From Amphiura filiformis (taxonomy: Eukaryota; Echinodermata; Ophiuroidea; Amphilepidida; Amphiuridae): a stretch of 64,000 bases of DNA. Location of the stretch: the NCBI RefSeq assembly GCF_039555335.1, contig NC_092628.1:94499782-94563781 (forward strand), given 5' to 3'. The position numbers were made by a program, and so were the translations under genes. Positions 1,749 through 46,741 of the stretch are shown here, piece by piece; the stretch's first letter is position 1; every line of letters begins with the position of its first letter. Below the pieces are notes generated by a model that was given only the letters and a program-made list of their open reading frames with translations, did no database searches and was not told the origin of the DNA.

Positions 1749-1968
1749 CAATTACAACATCACTTCAACAGCGAATTGAATTCTGTAACTTGTATCAACT
1801 TTTTTTTCTACAGATAAAGTAGGTTAGATCAAATCTAAGTTATGTACTTGTAAATCATAAAACTGTATATACTTTATCATTAACATTTTATTTCAATAAA
1901 ACTATTGTTAAAATTATGTTTTGCTTAACAGATCTCATAAATATAGCTAGTCTTCTAGTTGTACATTT

Positions 1969-2225
1969 GGGCTATTCCAGTTGAAATCCATACACCACCT
2001 ATGGAAGACATGACCTTAATCTCCCACACAGGGAGTGTGAATTTCAAACACCCATTCAGGTAACCCCCTTTGCTGGTGGTGTCGTGTCCGAGTCATTTTG
2101 CGAAAGAGAAAAATTATAGTTATTGTGTGTGATTAATTGTCTCAACATTTTGTTTCACACTCCTGTATGGGAGATTAATGTCATGTCTTCCATTGAGGGT
2201 GTATGGATTTCAACTGGAATAGGCC
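1969..2225. mobile_element. MITE of the GGGCTATTCCAGTTGAAATC family, carrying a gene fragment
   Basis: Inverted ends GGGCTATTCCAGTTGAAATC (left) and its reverse complement ending at 2225. The subterminal parts mention the same words seen in sister copies at 24633-24807 and 35845-35975: 'tatggaagacatgac', 'cccacacagg', 'cacccattcaggtaac'. Unlike those copies, the middle of this one (2072-2156) is replaced by DNA closely matching 4185-4273 in the neighbouring 533-codon gene. The family is present at least five times in this window (also degraded at 23043-23310 and 44515-44590). Confidence 0.85.
2072..2156 (-). pseudogene. captured fragment of the 2912-4513 gene inside a MITE
   Basis: From 'gctggtggt' at 2072 to 'ctcaacattt' about 79 bases later this stretch aligns without gaps to 4185-4263, with about 9 mismatches by eye. 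After that a 3-base gap leads into a shared 'tgtttc'. In the gene this part encodes roughly residues 84-110 (around the motif NYNFSLSRSDSDTLPPA). The copy lies in the same orientation as its source, about 2.1 kb away. It has no start, no splice sites and no ORF of its own, so it is a gene relic, not a coding exon. Confidence 0.8.
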
Positions 2226-2911
2226 ATTGAACATTGTCAACACGTTTGAACGATTCAAATGATTTAACACATTCTCCTCAAATATCCCTGCATTTCGTCA
2301 GCCTGCTACGCTTTTTGCCCAAGTCATTTTGTGTATTTTTGGCCCCCACACATATGTGGGGCTTATGTTATCATCCAGATGGTTGCCTGTTTGTTTCTTG
2401 AACCACATTTCGTTCTTTGTTCTCAAAATTACAAAAAATTACTTTGGCAATTAGCATAGCAGGCTGATGATTTAGCACATAGTTTCTGCACATCAACATT
2501 TTCAATGAAATGGCAGCACAATGGGCACATTTTCCCTGAAATTATGTCATTTTAGTTCATTTTGTCAAAGTGCCATACGTTTGGCACTTTATTTTAAAAC
2601 AAAAATGAATTCTGTAATTTTGGCATTTTATTTAACAAAAATTCCTTCAATTGAGCATATTTTCATTTCATGCCGATATTTGGCATATTTAGGCAAAATG
2701 TCGGCATGTAGGCAAGTCCAATTGCACGGCCTTTAAAAAATGTAAAGCTGTGACGGTTTTTGCATAAAAGTTCCAGAATAAAATCGACGCATGACATGCC
2801 TATTTAAAACAGCAAATACAATGTATATATAATCTCTGGTAATGTTAGAAACATAAAAATAAATAACATCAACTCTCTGGAATTCGATATTTGTTCACAG
2901 GAAAAAAAAAT
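2226..2911. other. 3' flank of the 533-codon gene
   Basis: Non-coding. Read on the minus strand it holds AATAAA words near 2590 and 2626, either of which could serve as a polyadenylation signal for the gene ending at 2912. The 71-codon plus-strand ORF at 2521-2736 is low-complexity repetition of 'ggca/cattt' words and is not supported as a gene. Confidence 0.4.
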
Positions 2912-4513
2912 TTAAAATGGTTTGGTTACACTCCGAAATGTCATATTCTTTGCTTTTAAATTTCCCTCACTTCGTTTTGCTAGATCTCTTTCTGCTTTCA
3001 AATTAACATCTGATTTGCTAAAACTATTCCCTCTTTTATGAGTTCTCATATTAGCGTTGTCCTCCAATCTCAAGGCATAGTAATCCACATTCTCTGGGTC
3101 CGTATAGTTATCCATTTTGTCTGCAAATTTTTTGACTCTGCCGGAAAAATTAGCTTGCCGAATTCTCGCTTCATTCAATTCCAAAATTGTTGGTCTTTTT
3201 TCTTCTCCAAAAATACTTGGCATAGAATGTTTATTGCTACTAGCCGCTTGCTCTTGTTTGCTTTTCATGAACTGTTTTTCTAATGAAGCTCCTAATAAGG
3301 CTACCATTGCAGTCTGTTTAAATGAAACGGAAGATTTAGAACTAAGTTTTGCGTCAGTGGAATGATTAGCATTTGAGCTATGCACATTATTTGTGATTTC
3401 TGATGCTTGTTCGAAAACAGAAGGACCGAAATTAGTTCCCTGCGGAACCCCCGTCGTTTCTTTGTGCGTATGGTCGTCGTTAGAGTCCAGTGGATCGTCA
3501 TTCCCGTCCAAGACAGTATCTGCTCTATTGGCTTCAATTATTGGCATAGTACCAATAGCTGTTTTAGGTCTATTAGTACTAATACGATCTAGATTTGTCG
3601 ATGACCTAACTGTAGCACTCAAAGTTGACTTTCGGAAAACTCGGGACAAACGAGGTATGGTATCATCTTCAAATCTTGACGGCTCTTCGTCTGATGTCTT
3701 GCCGTGTTTTTCTGATGTGGAATGATCGACTTTTACATTGTTTATGTCATTGCCTGTACATGTGTGTGCTGTTGGTACCTTTGGATTGTCATAGGTTTCT
3801 TTCTCAACAGACGTGTCTTGAAGTTTATTACTTCTACCTTTCGTCGCAGTGGAGTCCTTGTCTTTCTCAACAGACGTGTCTTGAAGTTTATCACTTTTAC
3901 CTATCGTTGCAGTTGAGTCCTTTTCTTTCTTAACAGACGTGTCTTGAAGTTTATCACTTCTACCTTTCTTTGCAGCTGTGTCCTGACTTTCCTTACTTCC
4001 AGCAACTTTTTCATCTTCCCAAACCGTCACTGGTGTAGCAGCTGGGGTCATCCCACCAAATTTCTTAATTTTGGTTGGTTTTGACTTAGTCTTATCAGGT
4101 ACTTTCCTACCACTACCGTCTTCCCGACTAGTTGATCTAGTTGCCGGAGCAGATCGTGCGCGACTTTGAAGGTTTCGTAAGTAAGCTGGTGGTAACGTGT
4201 CCGAATCACTTCGCGAAAGAGAGAAATTATAGTTATCATGTGTAATTAATTGTCTCAACATTTCTTTGTTTCCAGTCATTCTAGCATGAAAAATCTTGGA
4301 TCTGTGAAGCTTTTGTTGAAATCTCAAGTTCACCACTCTCTGATTTAATGATATCCGATGGGTGACTCGTTTCTCAGATACGTCCAACATTTGAAGCTCT
4401 CTCTGTAAAACCGCGTCAAGTTTCCAGTTGGCAGAATATACAGACTGAGATTTTTCGCCCACAAGGGCGCCCGTCTTTTTACTCATCGTAAATTTGTTTT
4501 TCAGCCCAACCAT
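2912..4513 (-). CDS. hypothetical intronless protein, 533 aa
   Basis: I do not recognise this family. A single open frame of 533 codons runs from ATG at 4513 to the stop at 2912, by far the longest ORF here that is not transposon-derived. The protein is hydrophilic, basic and rich in S, T, K, D and N, with no signal peptide, membrane segment or enzyme motif. Residues about 1-115 look the most structured (ANWKLDAVLQRELQMLDVSE; NLRFQQKLHRSKIFHARM), as does the C-terminal part (KKFADKMDNYTDPENVDYYA). Between them is a disordered middle with three 21-residue repeats built on SDKLQDTSVEK. A second in-frame Met (MSKKTG) lies ten codons downstream and could be the real start. A single long ORF that tolerates repeat expansion suggests a genuine but fast-evolving gene; a retrocopy or a terminal coding exon are alternatives. 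A fragment of it has been captured by the MITE at 1969-2225. Confidence 0.65.
   Translation of the reverse strand: MVGLKNKFTMSKKTGALVGEKSQSVYSANWKLDAVLQRELQMLDVSEKRVTHRISLNQRVVNLRFQQKLHRSKIFHARMTGNKEMLRQLITHDNYNFSLSRSDSDTLPPAYLRNLQSRARSAPATRSTSREDGSGRKVPDKTKSKPTKIKKFGGMTPAATPVTVWEDEKVAGSKESQDTAAKKGRSDKLQDTSVKKEKDSTATIGKSDKLQDTSVEKDKDSTATKGRSNKLQDTSVEKETYDNPKVPTAHTCTGNDINNVKVDHSTSEKHGKTSDEEPSRFEDDTIPRLSRVFRKSTLSATVRSSTNLDRISTNRPKTAIGTMPIIEANRADTVLDGNDDPLDSNDDHTHKETTGVPQGTNFGPSVFEQASEITNNVHSSNANHSTDAKLSSKSSVSFKQTAMVALLGASLEKQFMKSKQEQAASSNKHSMPSIFGEEKRPTILELNEARIRQANFSGRVKKFADKMDNYTDPENVDYYALRLEDNANMRTHKRGNSFSKSDVNLKAERDLAKRSEGNLKAKNMTFRSVTKPF
3799..3987 (-). repeat. three 63-bp in-frame tandem repeats
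   Basis: The word 'acgtgtcttgaagtttat' recurs at 3811, 3874 and 3937, an exact 63-bp period, so each unit adds 21 codons (core KLQDTSVEK) without changing frame. Differences between units are few and partly synonymous. This supports a translated repeat in the 533-codon ORF and makes copy number likely to vary between individuals. Confidence 0.85.
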
Positions 4514-5749
4514 TAAAGATTTAATATTACGTCAGCCTCGAAATTAGCATGGTTGTTGTGATGAATGCAATGCAATTAATATCCGTTGTCTCTTCATCAA
4601 TTGCTACTCATTCGAACTCCTCATGAGTTGTCGTTTTAATATAAATTCAACGTCCCAACGTCAATTGTATTATCATGATTATAGTCACTCTGTTCTAAAG
4701 TCATTTCAGCTTATTCCAATCAACTTTGTCAGTGAGCAACAGCGAATCATAACATCTGTGACGTTTATAGTTATTAAATGATGCATTTATAGTTCCTCGA
4801 AATATTCCGCTATACTGAACACAGCTTGACACGTTTTCTGATGATGATGATGATGCCCGTTCGATTTTCATTTCCTCTTAGTACACAATGACATGACAAC
4901 AGTTCAAGATTATTAGACCTGAACCAGCCTTACTGTAGTTGTGGATCCTCTTCAATCTCAAGTGTAGATAAAAAAAAAACTTCCGTCAGTAAAATTTGAT
5001 AACATATCCATCAGACGGTAGAAAACCTAACTTGTTGTTTGCAAGCCAGACACAACAGCATTGTGAGTTATTTTAATAATTATGTTAAGGTACATGAAGC
5101 AATAATTATTCTCTATAGTTGTTTGTTCGAGTGTCATAATAATCATTACTCACTGACATCAGCTCAATTTCGCATTCCCACAATGCATTACCAAAACATA
5201 TCAATCATACAATAGATCTGTTGTGCAGAGGGATAAATACAACTGAATATTGATCCCAACGGGATATCGATGAAGCCATCCCTCCTATATAAACATAAGT
5301 TTAGATTTTCCTTACGACATGTTCAAAGCTGCTGGTCCAACCATCCGGATGATCCCACCCCCACATTCCGAGTATAGGCCTACTCCAGTTTCAGGACCGT
5401 CAAAAAAGGGTATCTTTGAAATAACGTTCGCGTTTTAATCAAAAAAGGGGAATTGTTGAAGGGCGAAAATTCACGAAATCGCAAAAAACTTAAGGGGGCA
5501 TTGTTTCAGTAAAACATTCGCGAAATGACATTGGTGCAAAAGGGATTGTTTTCAAAGTTCGCCCACGAGCATCGGGGTCGGTAAGCCTATCATAGCGAAT
5601 GGAAATGTTTTTTAGCATGTTCTATCACAAGTACACGAATATATCGGAATAATAGAAGAGAAGATGTACATCATCTTCTTTTGATTTGCCATATTTCAAC
5701 AAGCTAAACAGATACTAAGTTCAAGCCTGTTGAGTGTTTTCTGACCGTG
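4514..5749. other. upstream region, no gene recognised
   Basis: Would contain the promoter of the 533-codon gene, but no TATA box at a convincing distance could be chosen. A short 'gatgatgatgatg' run lies near 4841. No ORF above about 60 codons and no repeat with clear ends was seen. Confidence 0.4.
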
Positions 5750-5975
5750 AGTGGAGCTACTAGTTAAAGCTACAGGTCTAAAGAAAGAAAGAATAGTTTA
5801 CCAATCCAAAGTGTTACAATTAAACAAGACAACAAATAAACAAATCCCACCGGCACACAACCCAACGTGGAAAAAAGCAAGGGAATGTGCCGGCATGGGA
5901 TTCGAACCCACGACTCCGATCACTAGACGGACGGCCGCCTTATCCATTAGGCCACCACCAGCTTCCACTGATAAA
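5750..5975 (-). mobile_element. tRNA-derived SINE (minus strand)
   Basis: Read on the minus strand, about 5968-5885 has an internal pol III promoter: an A-box-like TGGCCTAATGGATAAGGC and a B-box GTGGGTTCGAATCCCAT at the spacing expected in a tRNA. The head resembles tRNA-Arg-type sequences, but the outer acceptor strands do not pair and the anticodon stem has a mismatch. It is followed by a non-tRNA body (about 5880-5750) ending in T-rich and CTTT repeats. A tRNA head with broken acceptor stem plus unrelated body is the signature of a SINE, not a functional tRNA gene. The exact end of the body is uncertain. Confidence 0.65.
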
Positions 5976-6441
5976 CGGCTGGGTAGGCCTACTGACACTG
6001 GGTCTTAGTCTGGAGTAGGCCCTGCAGCTGGCAATACTCATCAAAATATTAAAATATTTTACAATTGAATAATATTGTTCTCCGTCCTTCACAACGTGCC
6101 TCTGTTGTACGAATCGAGTCAAAAATATAATACAATTGTCGCAATGGTTTATGGTGTAGCTGTAACTTAACTTCGTTAAAGTGTCATTTATTAACACAAT
6201 GCATTAAACATTATAATGGTACAATAATGATGGCCCACTCAGTGATCGATTTTACCAACATGTCCATGGAGATGGTAAATAAATTCAATTGATCGATCAT
6301 TGGTATCGGAGCATGTCAATATTGACTTCCTTGAACATATTATGTGCAAATATGGTAGGGTTATAGGCCCTACAACTTCTGTTCAAGCTTCTTGAGTCCA
6401 GGCCAGGGGTGAAAGTTGATTGATATATTATTTCCGGCAAA

Positions 6442-7106
6442 TTAAGGGAAGGGGTATGAACGTTTGGACAGTATTTATTGTGGGACATTAGAGCACATCA
6501 GACATATCGAATTCCATTCTGAATACGAAGAATGGCCTTCTGATATCAAATAATTTTGATTTTTGAAATTCGCAATGTAATACACATTTTATGGCAAATC
6601 ATTAAAATTGATATTTTGATATTTAACAGTACTTAAAGTAAACTTTATAAATCTGATGATTTATACTTAAAGTGTATGTAGGTGGGATGAAAAGCCGACG
6701 ATCAATTGAAAATTTTGACCTTTCGTATTGAAGATACGGGATGTTTTTCCTAAATCACCAAAAAATAGGTCTTTTTGGGAAAAAAATCCATATCTTCAAT
6801 ATAAAAGGTCAAAAGTTTCAATTGATCGTCGGCTTTTCCTCCCAGCTACATACACTTTAAGAATATATCATTAGATTTATAAAATTTATTTCGAGGACTG
6901 TTATATATCAAAAATTTAAAAAATATCAAATTTTAATAATTTGTCATAAAATTTGTATTATATTGTGATTTTCAAAAAATGAAAATTATTTGATATCAGA
7001 AAGACATGCTTCGTATTCAGAATGCAATTCGATACGTCTGAGGTGCTCTCATGTCCCATAAAAAATACTGTCGAAACGCCATAAACGCTCGTTCTAGATC
7101 CCTTAA
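6442..7106. mobile_element. TTAA-flanked palindromic element, ~660 bp
   Basis: The element reads TTAAGGGA at 6442 and TCCCTTAA ending at 7106. Inside, the two halves are near-perfect reverse complements over most of their length: 'attctgaatacgaag', 'gatatcaaataatttt', and 'aagccgacgatcaattgaa' mirrored at about 6817-6835. No transposase ORF is present. A TTAA target and RRG-type ends (AGGG/GGGA) fit Kolobok- or piggyBac-type non-autonomous elements. The 80-codon minus-strand ORF starting at 7259 overlaps its right end and is treated as chance. Confidence 0.75.
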
Positions 7107-13917: not shown

Positions 13918-28638
<14,721 letters not shown>

Positions 28639-35307: not shown

Positions 35308-38300
35308 ATGGTACACCCTCGCAAAATCCAAATTGAGGGCCTTGCAGTTCTAGTCAATTTTCACAGCACAGAAAATACCAATTTGGCTTGTCTTTGCTAA
35401 TTATTTAAAGTTAATTTCCCTGATAAGAAATCAAACTTTTGGAATTGTTTCATCAAGAGGTGTTTGTTTCACTTTCTCTAAGTTTTAATGTAAAGCATAA
35501 AACCCAATGTTTTGTTTGATTCTACAGTATAGTGTGCAACATAAGAAGGAGCAAGCTCATGATGACAGCATATGGTGCTGTGCATGGGTAAAGAGTGATA
35601 AGGATGGTGTGGATAATATTGTTACTGGCGGTGTGGATGACTTAGTCAAGTGTTGGCAATGGTAAGTGTTTAGCAATTTAATGGAAAAAATGCTTTTATT
35701 AAGCAGTCTGGAAATTCCTTACTGGTTTGATTTTGGCAGCTATTTTTGGGCATTCTCATAATCAAAATTAAAATTAAAGATTTCTATGTAGAGTCAAGAT
35801 GGTGAGATTTCTTGGTCATGTCACCGATACAAACAACCAATAATGAGCTATTCCAGTTGAAATCCATAACCCAATGGGGTTACCTGAATGGGTGACTCCA
35901 TTTAAAATCTATGCCCCCTGTGTGGGAGATTAAGGTCATGTCTTCCAAAAGGGGTGTATGTATAGATTTAAACTTAGCCTAATTCATTTACCACCAAAAT
36001 TTATTGACCAATGAAATTAAAACTTAGTAGGATATGAAGCACAAAGAATTTGGATACTGTATAGTTTTCTGTCATGAAAATTGCATGCAGGATGTGCATA
36101 TTAATTAATGAAATAAATTGCATATTTCGTTAACCATTTTACTAATCTACTGTACTACTAACAAAATTTGATCACATCATATATATTTTATTTTTCAGGG
36201 AGAATGATGAACTGAAGCTACGTTGGACACTAGAAGGTCATCAGTTAGGGGTTGTGTCAGTAGACATCAACCCTACGGGTACCGGTATCCTTTTATATAT
36301 ACCTACAGAATGAAGATTTTTAGAACAGTTTGTGCATTATATCAGTGGTGTGATTCTTCAGGATTTTTGTGGTTAAAATTTACGCAATTGTATTGATTTT
36401 CAGCCCGTTTTGGGGAGTAATTTTAGCCCAATTTCATGCTGCTTTTCAGGATTTTCTACTACTTAGAATATTTCACAAGTTTTGAATCACACCCAGTTAT
36501 ATAGAGAATGAGAGACTCTGTCAGTGGATTCAAATATTGTACATTCAGTTCTGTCAATAAGGTGTTTATTTGTTTGTCGCTCATGGCGGAAAATTAATGT
36601 AGTTCTGGATCATTTCACTATGTAACTGGTAAATTAATAACTACTACTAGTATTTGTTGTCTTGTCCTGTCTTGTCTTGTTCTTTATTGTGGACTTTAAC
36701 AATGACCAAGATCTGGAATGATATAATGGTATAATGATATATAACTAACTGTAACATACTATACAATAACGTAAATCCTCTATGCCCCCAAGTCCTTGAG
36801 TGTATTATTTTAGGTACCTGGATAATGAGCACATGTATATCAAGGACTGAGAAACAACTTAGCTAAGTATTTACAGTCTTGAGGCGCATGGAACGCCGGA
36901 CAGAAGGAGCTGCGGAATGCAGGCTTGGTGGTGTGTATGTTTCCTTTAGACCCGGAGAGTTGTGGGGTAGCAACCGTGACAATGCGCGCTGTGGAAGCTG
37001 AGTGTCGCGGGTGGAAGAGGGTGGCGGATCCAGAGACAATGCTGGTCCAGGGGTGTTTGGTGCTGGTTGGGTTGTGGGTGTGTCTGGAGTAGGTGGGGCA
37101 GTGTTGTCCTTAGGTGGCATACCTGTAGTCACCTTGTTCGGTCGCTGGGTGCAGATGCTAGGGAGGGTCTGCGAGGTACGACTGGTGGTGTAGGAGGGCA
37201 GATGAGGTGATGGGGCTGGCAAGACACTGCAGGTGTATACCGCCGCAAGAACTTCCTGTTACGTGGGTTACTCGGCCAGAGCCATCTCGCGAACCACATA
37301 TTGGTCAAACTGACGCACCTCAATGACAATGCCTGTTTTGTCCCATTTGGTTGGGTGAGGGCGGTTTGATTCTGGACTCGTGCGTGGTCACCAATAACAA
37401 GGGGAGGAAGGTGTCTTGTGTGCTCGGAAAGCCGTTCTGCAATTTTCATGTGTCTGTTACGCAGGGCCTCTTCTCGGGCTGCCAGTGTCTCTCTCCATGT
37501 TGGGTGTGGTTCATAGCGACCGGGGTGTATGGGAATGAAATCACGTATGGGTCGACCAAACAGACACTGTGCTGGGGAGAGTTTAGTCCCTTTGTCTGGT
37601 GTATTTCTGTATTGTAACATTGCCCGTTGAAAGGAGTCAGTGTCTAGGTCTCCATTGGGGTTTGTGTTGTCAGTAAGAAGGCGTTTAACCGTTTTAACTG
37701 CAACTTCAGCTCTGCAGTTGCTGTGAGGGTAGGCAACAGATGATACACGGTGCGGGTCTCCCCAATTTTTGAGAAAGGTCTTGGTGGCGGTGGATGAGAA
37801 CTCCGGACCACCATCAGAGGACAGCTCATCACTTATTCCATATGTGACAAATGTACGCCTGAGGCTGGAGATTAGGCCGTTTGATCCATCAGCTGCCCGT
37901 TCCACAATTGGCCAATTACTGTAGCGATCCACAATGACCAAGTAATTGTTGCCAGCAAGGTGGAAATAGTCAGCACATATCGACTGAAATGGGTACACTG
38001 GTGCAACAGGTGGGGTAGGTGGTGGATTGGGCTGTGATGGGGCCATACGATTACACTGTGAGCATCGTGTGCGCACGTGGTGGATATCGGACGTAATGCC
38101 TGGCCAAAAACTGAAGCTTCGCACGCGAGGTCATGGATGAGATGCCCTGATGAGCTGAGTGGAGGGACTTCAGAACCTCAGGGCGGAGTGATGGGGGGAT
38201 AATAATGCGGTGGTTGTGCATGGCAACGCCATCCAAAGAGTAGAGACCATCTCTCAGGCTGAAGTAATCTTGGAGATCGGGAGGCAACTCATGGCGTGAT

Positions 38301-44300: not shown

Positions 44301-46741
44301 GCACCTTTATTGAAGGCTCAAATATACATACTCGATGTGTTTGCATTTTTTAGTTGCTAATTTTGATAATAACCTGAATCCATTGCAATATACATATTTG
44401 TGAATGTGCTTGACTTCATTTGCTCACATAGCACTGCACAGCAATAATTTGTGCATTGACATAATTATGGGTTATCTGTGCAAAGGCTTTTGGGAATTAC
44501 CCAAATCGTGTATTGGGCTATTCCAGCTGAATTCCAGTGTGAATTTCAAATGGACTCACCTGAATGGGTGATTCCTTTTGAAATCGATTGCCCAATGGGC
44601 TGGTGTCAAATTTGAGCCCTGGAGCACAACCTGTTTTGATAGGTAAATATTTTGGATGTTTTTTGTTTCTTCTCACAGGCAACATGCCAACTTGGCCAAC
44701 ACTGTGTCAGGGCATGCATCATGGGTGCTCAGTGTACATTTCTGTCCAGATAACACACATTTTGTATCAAGGTAGGTACATGTAGATAAGTTTACAAATA
44801 CAAAGTATTTATGTCACTTGTTGATGGTGATTACCTTACCATGATAGTTGCACAAGTTTGTTCCATTTTCCTGTATCACTTTGTGTTACCTTAGTAATTA
44901 AACAATAAACAATAGCTTGAAATTTTGGACCTGCCTGTTGTCTGTCACATGGGGGAGGATAGTAAAAACAAAAATTCATATTGCTTATTTTCACTCTTAG
45001 TTCAATATTATTTTAATAACTGAAACTAGTTTTATGTATGAAAATTAAGTCACCATCATGAAAACTCTCCTTTCTCTAAAATGAATAAAGTCAATGACGT
45101 ATGATCCTAGCATATTGATTGATTGATTGAATTTATTCGAAATAACAACATTTATAAAAAATAACACATTTTTTACATCTTAAAAATTACATTAAAAAAA
45201 AATATGCTAAAGATAAAAAGATTACAATTCCAAACAAAATGTTGTTAAAACAGGATCACCCATGAAAGTCATAAATAATAACTTATTTCTAATGGGGTCC
45301 AGGGACACTACTAAAGGTCCAGGGACACTGCTAAACCAAAAGAAATAAAGAACTTCTTTTCTTTTTTTTACAATTTCTATAATATTTGGGGTGGGACTTT
45401 ACTCGAAGGTAGGACTATACGCGCATCATACAATAAGTAAGGATATTTCCAGTTAATGCAATTATACAATTTGTTGGTATGCGCTAGGTACCCAATTATT
45501 GTCTTCCATTGTGACTTGTGTGTCTTCATATATTTTCATACATCAATTTCTCAATATAAACCAAAGTTTGTTTTTATGATGATTATTTCAGTTCTTCAGA
45601 TAAGACAGTGAAAGTATGGGATGCAACAGCCAGGCAGTATGTAGCCACTTTCTATGACCACTATGACCAGGTAAGAGCAAATAATTCTGAAACTTGTATA
45701 CATCAATTGTATATGAAATGAAATGCACCAGAGAAGGAATCAGAGCCTCACTGTAATACTTTGCTCAAAACATGTGTTCAAGAAAAAGTTGCATATTGCC
45801 AACTGGCAGTCCACTTATGAACAATACAAAACATACATTCTGGAAATGATTAGTGTTTACAAGTATATGGTAGGGGTCATAGATGACATATATTAGGGTA
45901 CCATGCACAAGATGAGTGGTTTTCAACACAAGTTTAGCAATTTTGGAATTTCACCTTTGTATCGGGTAGTATCCTTTTAAAATGATAATTTGTATTCCTT
46001 TCCTCCAAACTCAGCACCTCAACTAAGTAGAAAAGGTTCTTTTTCTGCTCCAAAAACTGATACTCATTCAGAAATATTTCAATTCCTATCAGGAATCTTG
46101 ATCACTCTGGTGTTTCTAGATGTTTGAAGAAACAGCAACACTGTCTGTCTTGATGACATAGCCAAACATAATCAAGACCAGACAGTGTTGCTGTTTCTAC
46201 CAACATCTAGCATTACCCAGTGGATTCCTCTTGGTGGACAGATACTTTTGTTTAATTTGACAGGATGTGTGCCCTTGAGAATGGACCGCTTTCGATTTGT
46301 GAGTATGTCGCGAACCCTTTTGTTGGACCCAAGTAACTGCCTAAATGAGGCAAAATTGAAAAGAAAGGGGTTTCAAATTGAACTTGGCATTTGAAAAGTA
46401 TAAATCACGTTGGGTTTAAGGGTGTGCTAACAATTTTTTTGATGACTTTGACACAATTTGTTATTTTTTCAAATATGTAATAAAAAAAAAGACTCTTAAT
46501 GGAATGGACAGTATGACTGTTTGTAATGAAAGTTGGAACTATTTACATTGAATTCCAACAGCAACCAAATTATGTTTATATTACATTTAACTTAATTAAA
46601 ATATTATCATTAGTGACATATGTTTCTTTTGTTTCTGCATTTGCTTCATAGGTATGGCAGGCCAAATATAACGGGAATGGATCCAAGATTGTGTCCGTAT
46701 CAGACGACAAAGCTATACACGTGTATGACTGTCCTTTATAG
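35308..46741 (+). CDS. WDR61: WDR61 / SKI8, WD40 adaptor (10 exons, complete)
   Basis: WDR61 (SKIC8) is a WD40 propeller shared by the PAF1 transcription-elongation complex in the nucleus and the SKI complex that feeds mRNA to the cytoplasmic exosome. Exons: 35308-35310 (ATG only), 35528-35661, 36199-36284, 41053-41139, 41419-41567, 42590-42683, 43926-44019, 44679-44771, 45592-45670, 46652-46741. All junctions are GT-AG and phases agree; the sum is 302 codons plus stop against 305 that I recall for human. Diagnostic stretches: [110 protein letters not shown]. The start is the weak point: the model uses an exon consisting only of ATG. An alternative is ATG at 35507 read through into exon 2 (adding MFCLILQ), but that uses the pyrimidine-rich acceptor as coding sequence. 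Intron 3 holds an antisense Ty3-type element; introns 3 and 5 hold MITEs. Confidence 0.96.
35845..35975. mobile_element. MITE of the GGGCTATTCC family in WDR61 intron 2
   Basis: Starts 'gagctattccagttgaaatc' and contains 'acctgaatgggtgactcc' and 'gtgggagattaaggtcatgt'. It ends in a decayed right terminus ('atttaaacttagccta'). It is shortened relative to the copy at 24633. Confidence 0.75.
36863..40530 (-). mobile_element. Ty3-type (Mag-like) retrotransposon, degenerate, RT missing
   Basis: Antisense in WDR61 intron 3. In minus-strand order: Gag ([27 protein letters not shown]; 40524-40204); zinc knuckles ([23 protein letters not shown], a CX2CX4HX4C box; 40150-40020); aspartic protease ([13 protein letters not shown] near 39660); then directly the connection region ([20 protein letters not shown] near 39190), RNase H ([15 protein letters not shown] near 38950; [20 protein letters not shown] near 38790; DHKP), and integrase (H-C zinc site CSQCNRM near 38050; catalytic D in ICADYFHL, D in [11 protein letters not shown] in [14 protein letters not shown]; 38124-37129). 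The reverse-transcriptase fingers and palm expected between protease and connection are absent. Frames shift several times. I found no LTRs or target duplication by eye. It is inactive; frame breaks are described, not repaired. Confidence 0.9.
40630..40749. mobile_element. hAT-type MITE, 120 bp, perfect 8-bp target duplication
   Basis: Ends CAGGGACAGGCGATTTGCGC and the exact reverse complement; arms of about 24 bp. The flanks GTGATAAA at 40622-40629 and 40750-40757 are identical. An 8-bp duplication with CAGGG termini is diagnostic of hAT. The core repeats 'ttccgcgcaatttg'. It lies in WDR61 intron 3, just outside the Ty3-type element. Perfect flanks imply a fairly recent insertion. Confidence 0.9.
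41732..41886. mobile_element. fold-back element 1 of 3 in WDR61 intron 5
   Basis: Left CTATAGCAGATTCAACCCAT and right ATGGGTTGAATCTGCTAT are inverted. Inner arms ('caaatccaggctgccgg' against 'cggtagcctgaatttattt') continue the fold. Confidence 0.75.
41885..42078. mobile_element. fold-back element 2 of 3 in WDR61 intron 5
   Basis: TATAGTCCATTTGGCTTC with 'ttcaagagagtgacatc' at the left mirrors 'gatgtcactcttttgaggaa' with 'gccaaatggactatag' at the right. It abuts element 1 with a 2-bp overlap of the shared TATAG end. No ORF. Confidence 0.8.
42152..42376. mobile_element. fold-back element 3 of 3 in WDR61 intron 5
   Basis: CTATAGTCCATATCTCTACC with 'ttgagtcactggc' at the left mirrors 'gccagtgacttgaggtagat' with 'ataccgactatta' at the right. 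The terminal CTATAGTCCAT is shared with element 2, but the inner sequence differs. It ends about 210 bp before exon 6. Confidence 0.75.
42684..43925. other. WDR61 intron 6, nothing recognised
   Basis: AT-rich intron without a clear repeat or ORF. Confidence 0.4.
44515..44590. mobile_element. fragment of a GGGCTATTCC MITE in WDR61 intron 7
   Basis: 'attgggctattccagctgaa' followed by 'gtgaatttcaaatggactca' and 'cctgaatgggtgattcc' matches the left half of the family; the right half is missing. It ends about 90 bp before exon 8. Confidence 0.65.
44895..45095. repeat. half copy of the 48.3-48.6-kb fold-back family in WDR61 intron 8
   Basis: 'ttttggacctgcctgt', 'attgcttattttcactctta', 'aatattattttaataactg' and 'accatcatgaaaactc' correspond in order to 48456-48612. 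Only the right half is present. Confidence 0.6.
46116..46210. repeat. inverted repeat in WDR61 intron 9
   Basis: 'ctagatgtttgaagaaacag' with 'caacactgtctg' at the left mirrors 'cagacagtgttgctgtttct' with 'accaacatctag' ending at 46210. Arms are about 35 bp with one mismatch cluster. Confidence 0.75.

Follow-up and report, generated by a model that had tools for sequence, protein, structure and literature searches.

A MITE lying beside a 533-codon gene in Amphiura filiformis carries, between its inverted arms, a copy of coding sequence from that gene. As an individual case of a MITE that has copied part of a neighbouring coding sequence it is a clear one, because a single window (the whole stretch of DNA that was analysed, 64 kb in length) shows the parent together with both junctions, as well as two family copies that have no insert at the same point. 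We consider it likely that the element is a gap-filling Pack-TIR of the animal kind, in which the insertion of a MITE was followed by break repair that copied the gene 2.1 kb away, and that the product is probably functionless. An earlier note on this DNA had recognised the capture and described such events as less familiar in invertebrate animals, a view that is not supported, as 370 Pack-TIRs are reported from 100 animal genomes in a survey (PMC8277862). The present element represents one more case for an already described class and leaves the general view unchanged. The coordinates of all features are collected in Table 1.

Table 1. Position, strand and characteristics of the focal MITE and its parts, the parent gene and the other family copies (window coordinates).
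Feature	Position	Strand	Remarks
Left target-site-duplication candidate TTGTACATT	1959..1967	.	Adjoins the left arm directly
Left inverted arm	1968..2041	+	Begins TGGGCTATTCCAGTTG; pairs with 2154-2226
Retained ordinary MITE core CACCCATTCAGGTAACCCCCTTT	2049..2071	+	Copy C shares the first 19 bases exactly, copy D the first 13 (on the other strand)
Inserted coding-sequence copy	2072..2156	- (reading sense, as in the gene)	76/88 columns identical to 4185-4272
Right inverted arm	2154..2226	-	Pairs with 1968-2041
Right target-site-duplication candidate TTGAACATT	2227..2235	.	Adjoins the right arm directly
Parent gene, intact 533-codon ORF	2912..4513	-	Three in-frame 63-base tandem repeats at 3798-3986
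Source segment, about codons 81-110 of the parent gene	4185..4272	-	Match to 2072-2156
Family copy B	24632..24808	.	Without fragment; insertion point spanned (CCCCATTTGAAATTC); different short core
Family copy C	35844..35977	-	Without fragment; core CACCCATTCAGGTAACCCC kept; most of the arm past the insertion point missing
Partial family copy D	44513..44600 (end approximate)	.	Without fragment; insertion point spanned (reverse complement CCATTTGAAATTCACA)

With regard to the element itself, its existence at 1969-2225, as first described, is borne out, the true ends being located one base further out on either side, at 1968 and 2226. The resulting 259 bases are too small for a transposase and display the attributes of a MITE, namely, terminal inverted repeats, short size and several copies in the window. 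The repeats measure 73-74 bases, with mismatches at 6 of 73 aligned bases and one gap, and the DNA strand from 1960 to 2235 folds at -75.7 kcal/mol (z = -12.8, 200 shuffles). The two 9-base sequences that flank the arms, TTGTACATT and TTGAACATT, are identical at eight of nine bases. Pairs of 9-mers with at most one mismatch at the same fixed spacing occur at 16 of 63,580 window positions, and once the scan is given its freedom of 90 boundary combinations, the same criterion is passed by 54 of 3000 random sites. Among the three family copies checked (focal, B and C), the near-repeat is present in the focal one; no target duplication was found for B, and only a 4-base TAAT for C. A 9-base target duplication of the focal MITE is thus to be regarded as likely rather than proven.

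The inserted fragment was compared with the gene in several ways. The earlier count by eye of roughly 70 identical bases out of 79, in the same orientation and at a distance of about 2.1 kb, proved exact (2072-2150 against 4185-4263, with nine mismatches), and the match extends further, to 2156 and 4272, where the gapped alignment comprises 88 columns at 86.4% identity and a single 3-base gap that keeps the frame. When the parent ORF was used as a tblastn query, its residues 84-110 were found at 81% in the inserted fragment. On the same strand, against 2227-6500 (4.3 kb), the best score was 52 (+1/-2), compared with a maximum of 12 when the query was dinucleotide-shuffled 100 times. The focal MITE is accordingly a TIR element with non-TE filler whose parent is identified, as in a Pack-TIR, and this parent is unique within the window. 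That the common stretch might be a dispersed repeat, or the usual core of another MITE subfamily, that came to lie inside the ORF by chance is highly improbable. MITE cores do vary, as exemplified by copy B with its different short core, and the insertion point is tested by two other copies only, within 64 kb. However, the 64 kb contain just two strong matches to the fragment, itself and the gene, the next best being 19 bases long (E 0.065), and the stretch reads seamlessly through the 533-codon ORF.

This ORF is not a chance product, since in 20 mononucleotide-shuffled versions of the window no stop-free run exceeded 191 codons. The protein that it encodes has no match in Pfam or PDB at E up to 1. 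The tandem repeats at 3798-3986 correspond to 21-codon units within the ORF; identity to the first unit is 90% for the second and 86% for the third. Upstream of the gene, a tRNA-Thr (AGT) is predicted at 5887-5962 on the minus strand, which could be either a genuine tRNA gene or the head of a tRNA-derived SINE.

The nine substitutions between fragment and gene include eight transitions; four are silent and five change an amino acid, in four codons, their number being too small for a dN/dS test. In principle, the fragment could derive from a paralogue or another allele of the parent gene, and not from the copy at 2912-4513. The divergence of 11% and the four silent changes out of nine speak for such an origin, as does the in-frame gap of three bases, which would also suit a gene copy under constraint, but the five amino-acid-changing substitutions are what a decaying copy would likewise show, and a tblastn search of the window (E up to 0.01) revealed no further copy of the ORF. 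We judge such an origin decidedly unlikely, and retain the gene at 2912-4513 as the parent.

Both family copies that had been noticed earlier, at 24.6 and 35.8 kb, are confirmed, and there is a further, partial copy with its start at 44513. The family is hence represented in the window by four copies, the focal one included, of which one is partial (D) and one shortened (C). The earlier note had named a finding that would speak against capture, namely, that the fragment is the normal core of all MITE copies. Within the window, none of the three other copies carries it, and the fragment is present in one copy out of four, the focal one. The insertion point is continuous in two of these three copies, B and D, whereas copy C is deleted right there, so that its missing fragment tells little and only B and D test the point. 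Copy C contains the ordinary core CACCCATTCAGGTAACCCC (2049-2067) without any difference, and copy D contains 13 bases from the beginning of this core, as the reverse complement. In the focal MITE, the gene fragment starts 4 bases past this core. Since the ordinary core is still in place, the gene piece interrupts the focal MITE, and the description of a centre replaced by the gene piece has to be abandoned. Six bases that directly precede the core in copy C, TGGAGT, are absent from the focal MITE. Besides the four copies, a region at approximately 23040-23300 contains several short, mutually inverted stretches with a distant resemblance to the MITE ends (62-79% identity), as if a related element had been multiplied or nested there.

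The direction of transfer from gene to MITE, which had been favoured from the outset, is well supported by the arrangement of these sequences, because the ORF is continuous through 4185-4272 and on both sides of it, no match to MITE sequence was found around this segment, and copies B and D are devoid of the fragment. The opposite event, in which the gene took the stretch from the MITE, would account for the similarity itself and for nothing beyond. It conflicts with the two copies that span the insertion point without the stretch, as well as with the lack of any match to the MITE arms around the source, and appears close to untenable.

How the gene piece may have entered the MITE can be proposed from the anatomy of the chimera. 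A MITE would have inserted about 0.7 kb past the stop codon of the 533-codon gene, as suggested by the arms and by the 9-base flanking repeat with its one mismatch. Later, a break would have occurred in the foldback centre of the MITE, or a replication fork would have stalled there, and we infer the hairpin as the site of this break or stall. In the course of repair, synthesis would then have jumped to the gene, at a distance of 2.1 kb, and copied 85-88 bases of its coding sequence, before returning to the MITE with the loss of about 3 bases. The strong DNA fold is consistent with a fragile MITE centre. The insertion point is internal, at a relative position of 0.57 in the 181-base element rebuilt without the filler, and the bases lost at this point amount to about 3 of 181 (1.7%), as judged from copies B and D. 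At the junctions, gene and MITE have 1 base (G) in common on the left and 3 bases (TTC) on the right. In 100,000 simulated junctions, overlaps of at least 1 base arose in 45% and of at least 3 bases in 5.7%, and the junction overlaps alone are within chance. Taken together, the 2.1-kb distance, the internal breakpoint, the small loss and the short overlaps are consistent with gap filling.

These values can be set beside those of the animal Pack-TIRs in the survey, for most single-copy members of which the mechanism given is the repair of a break during which the template is switched to DNA close by (PMC8277862). Its authors report a parent within 15 kb for 160 of 281 unique Pack-TIRs (56.9%), the majority of those being closer than 5 kb; 190 of 281 (67.6%) show an overlap at one breakpoint or at both, with a median of 2 bases; the gap has a median of 4.6% of the element, and breakpoints are skewed inward (PMC8277862). 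Of the features by which gap-filling Pack-TIRs are recognised, the focal MITE has a parent close in cis and a small gap with an internal breakpoint. It resembles the single-copy animal Pack-TIRs in that a TIR element has received a short non-TE filler by copying, from a parent less than 5 kb away, and also in its small internal gap and in breakpoint overlaps that are short, though within chance, the single occurrence of the focal chimera being that seen in the 64-kb window (PMC8277862). An exonic source is shared with 13.4% of the animal Pack-TIRs, whereas the filler, at 85 bases, is shorter than their median of 224 (PMC8277862). A switch of template to neighbouring sequence while a break is repaired is also encountered in the gap repair of Drosophila P elements with filler DNA, which has been observed when the transposase was artificially activated (as cited in PMC8277862); for the focal MITE, no transposase is known.

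Another possibility is that the chimeric MITE was formed elsewhere or earlier and transposed as a unit, as a multicopy Pack-MITE, reaching the vicinity of the parent by local hopping or by chance. Both arms and the 9-base flanking near-repeat are equally expected if the chimera moved after capture, and the divergence of the fragment from the gene (9/79) is no lower than that between the arms (6/73). The two values do not differ significantly (Fisher p = 0.59), and divergence therefore cannot order capture and insertion. Against such a movement, the source is only 2.1 kb from the chimera, no second chimeric copy is present among the four family copies in the window, and the survey states that multicopy Pack-TIRs, in frogs or alligators, were without exception in distal regions (PMC8277862). 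We thus hold transposition of a ready-made chimera to be unlikely, and capture at the present site to be the better account.

Plant Pack-MULEs are similar to the focal MITE in that a gene fragment is captured between inverted arms. Its long arms and the 9 bases repeated at its flanks recall Mutator elements, and 9-base repeats are found in maize Mu. It could accordingly be envisaged that a Mutator-like MITE, with its long arms and 9-base target duplication, captured coding sequence and then spread, and would thereby constitute an animal Pack-MULE. This is very unlikely. According to the survey, no Pack-MULE was identified in its animal reference genomes (PMC8277862). The fillers of Pack-MULEs often come from other chromosomes, in contrast to the parent 2.1 kb away in the present case (PMC8277862). 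These fillers are, moreover, longer, with 305 bases (as cited in PMC8277862) compared with 85 in the focal MITE. Sequence searches outside the window, in collections where animal DNA is not expected, gave no matches to family or fragment patterns among viral contigs, nor to one family pattern among contigs of prokaryotic genomes, and strings of family sequence had no match in literature text.

With respect to function, none is indicated for the captured fragment, which is probably functionless. The idea, put forward in the earlier note, that the captured piece could feed small RNAs against the parent gene is weak, as exact identity between the two sequences extends over 19 bases at most, with no 20- or 21-mer in common; such a feedback is unsupported, though not disproved. 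Between the paired arms, the fragment is mostly unpaired in the centroid fold, although a few of its bases pair locally in the fold of minimum energy. On the minus strand, AATAAA motifs are located at 2627 and 2588, between the stop codon of the parent gene and the MITE, and a third one at 1887, past the MITE. If the first two are used, the parent transcript may end before the MITE, while use of the third would make possible a longer 3' UTR that takes in the MITE.

The window is also populated by other repeats. Just to the left of the focal MITE, another short inverted-repeat element is present at 1483-1754, with 41-base arms at 88% identity. Large nested inverted repeats at 6461-7078, with arms of 146 bases at 85%, 104 at 89% and 50 at 88%, probably represent another foldback element. 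A LINE-like ORF on the minus strand (19342-21090) harbours endonuclease and reverse transcriptase domains (Pfam Exo_endo_phos_2 and RVT_1). Finally, the minus-strand ORF at 37129-38124 shows a match to the integrase core rve (32.2 bits, E 1.4e-7), just below the cut-off of 32.6 bits, and is likely a retroelement remnant.
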